Source of the DNA: Ilumatobacter coccineus YM16-304
GTDB lineage: Bacteria > Actinomycetota > Acidimicrobiia > Acidimicrobiales > Ilumatobacteraceae
Direction of reading: 5' to 3'
DNA: 64,000 bases
Assembly: GCF_000348785.1 (NCBI RefSeq)
Contig: NC_020520.1
Span: 124,001 to 188,000, forward strand
Positions within the stretch are counted from its first letter, which is position 1. Each line of letters begins with the position of its first letter. The notes below the pieces were generated by a model. It did not search any database. It was not told the DNA's origin and saw only the letters and a program-made list of their open reading frames with translations. The translations under genes and the position numbers were made by a program. Positions 37,802-38,923 of the stretch are shown here, in pieces.

Positions 37802-38098
37802 TCAGCCGGCGTCGTACTGCACGGCGGCGCGCGCCGAGATGCTGCCGGCGAGGTACTTCTCGATCAGCGCTTTGTGATCGGGGTGATCGCGGTAGACCGC
37901 GTAGTCGTCGACCGAGGCGTACTCGCCGACGATGACGTAGTCGTAGTTGCCGTCGGAGATCTGCAGGTCGGGGCCGTGGCGGAAGTCGCCGACCTCGGGC
38001 ACCGATGCTGCGACGGCTGTCAGCGTCTCGCTGAACTCGTCGATGTGCGCTTGGTCGACATCGTCATTCCACTTGAACATCACCACGTGCCTGAACAT
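37802..38098 (-). CDS. Dabb (stress-responsive alpha/beta barrel) protein
   Basis: This 98-residue protein starts MFRHVVMFKWNDD and contains DFRHGPDLQISDGNYDYVIVGEYASVDDYAVYRDHPDH, the full Dabb dimeric ferredoxin-like fold. These small proteins have varied or unknown roles. CACACT ends six bases before the ATG. It is separated from the thioredoxin-like gene by 30 bases and may have its own promoter. Confidence 0.88.
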   Translation of the reverse strand: MFRHVVMFKWNDDVDQAHIDEFSETLTAVAASVPEVGDFRHGPDLQISDGNYDYVIVGEYASVDDYAVYRDHPDHKALIEKYLAGSISARAAVQYDAG

Positions 38099-38128: not shown

Positions 38129-38923
38129 TCAGGCGAACTGTGCGGCGAGTTCGAGGACCTCGCCTTCGGGGATGGCACCGCGCCAGCGACCGATCTCCTC
38201 GCCGTCGGGCGAGAACATGATCACCGTGGGCTGCCCGGTGATCTCGAAGGCCGTCCAACTCTCGAACGACGAGTCCCAGAGCATCGTGAACGACTCCGTG
38301 CCACGTTCGGCGACGAACTCGAAGGCTTCACCGAGGCTGTCCTGGGTGCCGAATCCGATCACTTCGACCTCTTGCAGATGATCTCGAGCGAACTGCTCGA
38401 CGTCGGGAGCCTCCCGACGGCAGGTGGGTCAATGCGGCGCCCAGGTCCAGAGCAGGACCGGTCGGTCGGACGGGAGGATGTTGCGAATGTTGGCCTCGCT
38501 GGCCCGTCCGACATCGTCGACGACGAGATCGGGGAAGGGATTGCCGTCGAAGTCGGCGGCGGGCTGAACGTCGGTGGCGAATGCTCGTCCACCGATCTCC
38601 GCGGGCGCAACGGCAGGCTCCGGTTCTGGTGCCGGTTCGTCGGCGTCGGTTGCGGTTTCGATTTCGTCGTCAACCGCGTCGATCACGGTCGTTGCCGGGA
38701 GTTCGGCCGGTGGTTCAGTGGCAACCGATTCGTCCGGGGCGTCGGCTTGAGCGTCGACGTCGGCGTCGGTTTCGGCGTCGGGGGCCGCGGTCGCCGGCGG
38801 TGCGTCGGACGCAGCGGGGCCGGATGTCGCGCTGTCGGAGCCGCTCGAACCTTCACCGCATGCGGCGAGCACGAGTGCTCCGGCGAGGATCGCGGCCGGG
38901 AGCACACGTCGTCGGGAGAGCAT
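38129..38923 (-). CDS. Thioredoxin-fold lipoprotein, probable selenoprotein (Sec at in-frame TGA)
   Basis: Read through one TGA at 38429-38431, this is a 264-residue protein. It has a lipobox (VLAAC, Cys22), an acidic Ala/Pro-rich linker to about residue 105, and a TlpA-like thioredoxin domain. The active-site segment is LLWTWAPH, then TGA (codon 165), then PTCRREAPDVEQF: the stop sits exactly where the first Cys of Cys-x-x-Cys belongs. Downstream the frame stays open for 99 codons and includes the cis-Pro loop ITGQPTVIMF. A hairpin with a G-rich loop begins nine bases after the TGA, as expected for a bacterial SECIS. CACAAT ends six bases before the ATG. The alternative is a nonsense mutation or sequencing error. 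Confidence 0.75.
38401..38419 (-). promoter_or_regulatory. Candidate bacterial SECIS hairpin
   Basis: On the minus strand CGTCGGG, loop AGGCT and CCCGACG form a perfect 7-base stem. It starts nine bases after the in-frame TGA, and the loop begins 16 bases after it, with G in the first two to three loop positions. This fits general descriptions of bacterial SECIS elements, which lie inside the coding region just after the UGA. Confidence 0.65.

Follow-up and report, generated by a model that had tools for sequence, protein, structure and literature searches.

The probable selenoprotein gene and its surroundings

We analyzed a 64,000-nucleotide stretch of the genome of the marine bacterium Ilumatobacter coccineus YM16-304 (hereafter the window), whose minus strand carries, at 38129..38923, a coding sequence (ATG at 38923, terminal stop TGA at 38131-38129) with an in-frame TGA at 38429..38431. 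Read as selenocysteine (Sec), this codon is residue 165 of a 264-residue protein and the first residue of a UPTC motif, as placed by translation and by aligned homologue DNA. The original prediction, which did not state the strand, had located the TGA at the first active-site cysteine of a TlpA-like protein; the minus-strand frame bears this out with the sequence WAPH-U-PTC, and the plus strand gives no such protein. Standard ORF calling stops the protein at His164, so that ordinary annotation breaks the gene, as had been foreseen.

The read-through product begins with a predicted signal peptide (38858..38923), whose lipobox LAAC at residues 19-22, read from the translated sequence, fits a lipoprotein with Cys22 (38860-38858) as the predicted lipidation site; a loose lipobox-like motif is found upstream in 22 of the 28 sites of the gene's own group of homologues (group A, below). 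A low-complexity linker of ~100 residues leads to a thioredoxin-fold (TlpA/ResA/DsbF-like) domain (residues 126-264; 38132..38548), recognized by Pfam, AlphaFold2, and Foldseek. Within it, Cys168 (38420..38422), the second (resolving) residue of UPTC, is invariant in the 23 rows of alignment A2, and Pro232 (38228..38230), a presumed cis-proline, belongs to a Q231-P232 pair invariant in 23/23 rows; the cis-proline has a well-known role in the thioredoxin fold. Two hairpins lie just past the UGA on the same strand, H1 at 38401..38419 (nt 10-28 past the UGA) and, abutting it, H2 at 38384..38400 (nt 29-45).

A gene for a 98-residue Dabb (stress-responsive A/B barrel) protein (37802..38098, minus strand; PF07876, 60 bits) starts 30 nt downstream and is possibly co-transcribed with the selenoprotein gene. 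Among the loci compared, a Dabb neighbour was seen next to the Sec gene only in three closely related species, and no Pfam family was found in more than 3 of 60 neighbouring proteins (3 from the window and 57 of 140 ORFs; 16 loci). The neighbourhood is not conserved and therefore gives no hint of the substrate. Neither Rfam at gathering scores nor ARAGORN reported anything in the 64-kb window.

Conservation of the in-frame UGA

At the family level, 165 of 221 genomes contained a match at E ≤ 1e-6, and each of the 24 matches at E ≤ 1e-30 (the Ilumatobacter gene included) held exactly one TGA. In an evenly sampled set of 248 genomes of the order, 133 had a match at E ≤ 1e-12; among the matches listed, counted by eye, 49 reached E ≤ 1e-40 (two of them from the own genome), 47 with one TGA and 2 with none. 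Homologues in larger number came from a genome scan seeded on the motifs EAP[DGE]VEQF and L[VLI]WxWAPHC; this seeding is biased towards those residues, though not towards particular synonymous codons. One set of loci (L022-L091) provided 72 distinct sites, namely 28 of group A, 36 of a second Sec group (group B), and 8 with Cys codons. Another (L092-L179) provided 91 sites, some repeating the first set, with TGA in 81 and TGC or TGT in 10. After merging and deduplication, group A and L092-L179 comprise 93 distinct sites, 83 with TGA and 10 with a Cys codon at residue 165.

In the aligned homologue DNA the codon for residue 165 is always TGA, TGC, or TGT, in line with the expectation that homologues would carry Cys or TGA at this position; as far as alignments tell, the in-frame UGA is conserved and Sec exchanges with Cys. 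Group A forms a clade with 100/99 support (25 rows; 3 of the 28 sites were too short and were omitted). In 25/28 group A sites the frame continues for 96-103 codons, the UGA included, before it reaches a stop; two others run off their contig and the third (L040) meets an early TAG. Sec forms recur across the order Acidimicrobiales and are not peculiar to one actinobacterium. The original prediction had regarded a Sec lipoprotein as unusual in this phylum, a view to be corrected in the light of this recurrence and of the Sec-UxxC thioredoxin-fold proteins already known (see below).

Several sites deserve separate mention. The L040 copy (G120:C79) combines the TGA with an in-frame TAG and a frame change, and its H2 stem is still compensated. 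The homologue at L059 (G107:C184) has two in-frame TGA codons and a U-P-F-U active site. The codon immediately 5' of the UGA (38432-38434 in the window) is CAT in 71/83 TGA sites vs 2/10 Cys sites, the commonest codon at the latter being CAC (6); a context effect on the UGA is a possible explanation of this bias.

Selenocysteine machinery and other Sec-type genes

The host genome, a single contig (C1) of 4,830,181 bases, contains a tRNA-Sec gene scoring 66.5 bits (gathering score 47), which ARAGORN also calls as tRNA-SeC with anticodon tca. SelA (413.8 bits) and SelB (291.1 bits) both exceed their curated cut-offs and are encoded by adjacent genes, and the SelB winged helix (PF09107) was found. 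SelD (375.4 bits) also passes its cut-off, and its own gene (L019/L021, C1:2441028-2441951) requires read-through of an in-frame UGA. By gene content, the Sec machinery is complete, and the sel genes that the original prediction called for are all there. A gene for an AhpC peroxiredoxin (L017:5427-6041) lies ~1.3 kb from the tRNA-Sec gene.

Of the 221 family genomes, 147 have a tRNA-Sec match. We examined co-occurrence in 40 of the 248 order genomes, picked by eye from visible matches, 28 with the TGA form and 12 in which no TGA was seen; several of the latter have weaker matches only, and one of them (G238; L166) was confirmed to carry a Cys codon. A tRNA-Sec was detected in 25/28 TGA-form genomes vs 3/12 of the others (Fisher p 1.3e-4). 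The three TGA-form genomes lacking a match are G393, G385, and G336 (88, 83, and 95% complete, respectively), and the three with tRNA-Sec and no visible TGA form are G238, G344, and G269.

The own genome also encodes a paralogue (L054, C1:213249-213743), which shares 49% identity in the aligned region and likewise has an in-frame TGA followed by both hairpins, and a second kind of Sec thioredoxin-like protein (L180, C1:3305358-3305771), which matches group B and has one in-frame TGA. A covariance model (R1) searched against this genome gave two strong matches, with the third dropping to E 6e-4; since both strong matches belong to the training set of the model, they add only that there is no third strong copy. 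The third match is antisense to an apparent universal-stress-protein frame. Inspection of the weaker loci L216, L217, L218, L220, and L221, three of which were translated, revealed no Sec-type reading frame.

Two hairpins follow the UGA

The stem noted in the original prediction (CGTCGGG/CCCGACG with loop AGGCT, stem starting 9 nt and loop 16 nt past the UGA) is present as described and corresponds to H1, for which RNAfold gives 8 bp and the triloop GGC. The 50-nt stretch taken alone is only mildly unusual (z -1.92; 9/200 shuffles as stable), and the evidence for RNA structure comes from comparison and not from the fold of a single sequence. Bacterial SECIS (bSECIS) elements have been described as a stem of 4-16 bp and a loop of 3-9 nt with G in one of its first two positions, located 16-37 nt after the UGA and with a minimum free energy at or below -7.5 kcal/mol (PMC13188914). 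H2 (UCGAGC-AGUUC-GCUCGA) conforms to these rules with 6 bp, the loop AGUUC (38394-38390) starting 34 nt past the UGA, and -8.8 kcal/mol. It thus agrees with the bSECIS consensus in stem, loop, G position, spacing, and energy, whereas the Ilumatobacter gene departs from that consensus by an extra conserved hairpin, H1, between the UGA and H2.

Synonymous codon use was analyzed in 26/28 group A sequences (two short ones dropped) over 43 conserved codons. Constraint reached the simulation floor (5e-5) at U-1 (CAT, 24/24), U+10, U+14, and U+15, with lower significance at U+11 (6e-4) and U+12 (0.03); U+13, inside H2, was unconstrained. Nominally low values elsewhere among the 43 codons tested were those of U-38 (0.002), U-2 (0.003), and U+30 (0.008). 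Compared with synonymous shuffles, the 28 group A sites gave Z -12.1 for nt 8-28 and Z -16.3 for nt 28-48, values that must be inflated, the null being imperfectly calibrated, because a control stretch (nt 60-108) also exceeded its shuffles in stability, both in group A (Z -4.2) and in group B (Z -3.3). The 8 Cys homologues showed no effect in either stretch (Z 0.6 and 0.2, respectively).

At the TGA sites, all 6 pairs of H2 are kept in 64/83 and 5 of the 6 in 19/83, and none of the 17 Cys sites keeps more than 4. Positions 30 and 44 pair as C-G in 75/83 sites and as U-A in 8/83, with no half-changed case, and at all 8 U-A sites the 3'-side substitution replaces Arg with Gln. On a quick tree including 7 of these 8 sites, the change at this pair takes 5 steps, only 2 of which are forced by well-supported branches. 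The covariation of a fixed two-helix model over 23 rows was no better than that of shuffled alignments (147/500 as high), a result explained by the near-invariance of H2 and by register shifts in H1. Taken as comparative evidence, these data show both H1 and H2 to be under selection. The diverged group A paralogue at L029 (second copy, around 3330), which sits on a very long branch, has lost the G of the H2 loop (AAUUC).

The first stem had been proposed as the SECIS element itself. That it is real and selected is upheld by the comparison; the invariant G-U loop, however, is found in H2. H1 could nevertheless be the SECIS bound by SelB, with H2 acting as a helper or being a second, independent conserved feature. 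The H1 of the Ilumatobacter gene agrees with the published bacterial model (loop GGC, 17 nt past the UGA, -12.8 kcal/mol), it is selected as a stem, and it is the more stable of the two, reaching -7.5 kcal/mol in 78/83 TGA sites vs 65/83 for H2 alone; Sec-type selD genes have it too (see below). Its loop, however, follows the pattern N0-1-G-[G/U] in only 19/83 TGA sites, compared with 81/83 for H2, so that the stem is kept and the loop sequence is not. Constraint on H1 codons is weak (U+4, p 0.04; U+8, p 0.006), whereas most H2 codons hardly vary, and the RNAalifold consensus of 23 sequences contains H2 only. Moreover, only one hairpin is conserved in sister group B, with the loop GGUC 26 nt past the UGA in 35/36 sites, and nt 8-28 of that group fold less stably than shuffled sequences. 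We consider it unlikely, on this balance, that H1 is what SelB recognizes; it is part of the signal and probably not the SelB-binding part, a role for which H2 is the preferred candidate. The stem of the group B hairpin shows compensatory changes in L058 and L059.

The same arrangement in selD

In the Sec-type selD of the own genome, the UGA is followed by an H1 hairpin (GCTCGCC-CCG-GGCGAGC) and then by a hairpin with the loop GUC starting 33 nt past the UGA. With each stretch folded separately and a threshold of -5 kcal/mol or better, both hairpins were found in 8/8 UGA-type selD genes (including L190-L196), sites that are not independent since all but one are 76-99% identical to the query, vs 0/17 Cys-type genes. 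The second loop starts with GU in 7/8 UGA-type genes and is CGUGA in 1/8. Mean folding energies for the two stretches are -12.4 and -10.3 in UGA-type genes vs -3.9 and -2.5 in Cys-type genes, several of which do carry a hairpin at the place of H1.

Fold, family, and known relatives

The frame had been described as open on both sides of the TGA and as encoding two halves of one domain; in agreement, five thioredoxin-fold families of Pfam match the read-through protein above their gathering scores. The segment that follows the UGA, taken by itself, still matches positions 42-137 of the Redoxin profile (E 8e-4, below the gathering score). An AlphaFold2 model based on 23 aligned sequences is confident from about residue 131, beyond which each 10-residue block averages a pLDDT above 90, and is not confident before it. 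As judged from sequence and fold model, the active-site helix starts with XxxC and the presumed cis-proline is conserved, the features of a TlpA/ResA/DsbE(F)-like protein.

The best sequence relatives in the PDB are DsbF (3ios; profile E 3e-22) and MPT53 (1lu4; 2.7e-18) of Mycobacterium tuberculosis, which have the same fold, with Foldseek TM-scores to the target of 0.83 and 0.77, respectively. DsbF reads WAPWCPTC where the Ilumatobacter protein reads WAPHUPTC; both relatives have Cys, whereas the Ilumatobacter protein would have Sec first and belongs to a clade that has recoding hairpins of its own. By fold, ResA and, further down, CcmG rank after DsbF and MPT53. ResA, CcmG (DsbE), and TlpA share with the Ilumatobacter protein the thioredoxin-like fold and the XxxC active site; it differs from them by the predicted Sec in place of Cys and by the lack of a recurring neighbour family among the 60 proteins above. 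NCBIfam scores (dsbE, 30.9 of 123.15 bits; ResA, 26.4 of 170) make the protein a relative that is filed as neither. The own-genome paralogue also falls below the TlpA cut-off of NCBIfam, in which neither the selenoprotein nor the genome's two further Sec thioredoxin-like proteins reached the cut-off of any model.

Among Pfam families, Redoxin and AhpC-TSA score narrowly highest, and peroxiredoxin Q is present among the Foldseek matches, as expected if the protein were a genuine selenoprotein of peroxidase or peroxiredoxin-like function. The spacing of the UxxC motif and the best matches in both sequence and fold (DsbF, MPT53, ResA, CcmG) argue instead for a disulfide exchanger, and we regard a peroxidase as distinctly improbable.

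Proteins of this general kind have been seen before. A 2026 review counts 119 families or subfamilies of prokaryotic selenoproteins, several of them Sec-UxxC thioredoxin-fold proteins (PMC13188914). Those catalogued include thiol-disulfide isomerase-like proteins (cd02966), a Prx-like thiol:disulfide oxidoreductase (PF00578), a Redoxin family protein (PF08534), and a thiol:disulfide interchange protein (PF13098); compared by their descriptions in Table 1 of the review, they are the same kind of protein with the same UxxC motif, and a shared subfamily is possible (PMC13188914). Trx-like and Prx-like UxxC families were included in the GOS survey (PMC2398784), and in 2006 selenoproteins were reported from actinobacteria (PMC1794560). 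Selenoproteins are described as rarely retained in aerobic bacteria (PMC13188914). Ilumatobacter coccineum YM16-304 is described as aerobic in its genome paper, the main text of which holds no word beginning with 'seleno' (PMC3910706). Among the open-licence papers listed we found no description of the subfamily, of its spread in Acidimicrobiia, or of the tandem hairpin, which does not imply their absence from print. The Sec-UxxC thioredoxin-fold kind is thus already known, and the SECIS layout is possibly new.

Other readings of the UGA

Decoding of the UGA as an ordinary amino acid (Cys or Trp), through a suppressor or an altered code and with no selenium involved, would likewise explain its conservation and the open frame. 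However, the same gene uses UGA as its own terminal stop, the genome contains tRNA-Sec(UCA), selA, selB, and selD, residue 165 alternates with Cys while the TGA forms track tRNA-Sec, and the SECIS-like element accompanies TGA sites only; together these make ordinary decoding highly improbable. A pseudogene, a sequencing error, or two short separate genes, as might be read from the ORF call ending at His164, can be dismissed with near certainty, since the same TGA recurs at one codon in many genomes, which removes sequencing error, since the break would fall within the UxxC active site, and since dN/dS 3' of the UGA is 0.21-0.47 in six comparisons.

Proposed function and significance

The gene very probably encodes a selenocysteine-containing, membrane-tethered thiol-disulfide oxidoreductase, for whose decoding we propose that SelB acts at H2. 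In the mechanism that we infer, SelB carrying Sec-tRNA-Sec(UCA) would bind the invariant G-U loop of H2 and decode the UGA by Sec insertion, while H1 probably stacks on H2, shortening the path to the ribosome, or pauses the ribosome. The full-length lipoprotein would be exported, lipidated at Cys22, and tethered to the outer face of the membrane by its long flexible linker. There, Sec165 would be the nucleophile that attacks the disulfide of a substrate and Cys168 the thiol that resolves it, and the exchange may be fed by a membrane reductase of the CcdA/DsbD type. By gene presence, such a reductase is available: the own genome has one DsbD_TM/CcdA-like protein over the Pfam cut-off and one below. 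The gene for the one below the cut-off (C1:4344297-4345291) adjoins a TlpA-like gene without TGA, and the pair is a possible sulphur-only counterpart.

With moderate confidence, we favour a broader reading in which Acidimicrobiia possess an order-wide, multi-copy, extracytoplasmic Sec redox system in aerobes, served by a tandem-hairpin SECIS that is shared with the unrelated selD and in which the RNA dictates the VEQFAR stretch of the protein (Arg to Gln forced by pairing). This tandem element would consist of a sequence-variable helix beside the UGA, followed by a helix with the invariant G-U loop.

On these grounds, a genus with an aerobic type strain, together with many genomes of its order, keeps Sec redox genes that annotation truncates at the active site, and with Ilumatobacter in culture the selenoprotein claim is directly testable. 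The tandem hairpin, which two unrelated gene families share and their Cys forms lack, would provide a clean system for studying the position and spacing of bacterial SECIS elements. The compensatory changes, in altering the protein, clearly illustrate how an RNA signal shapes the sequence of a protein.
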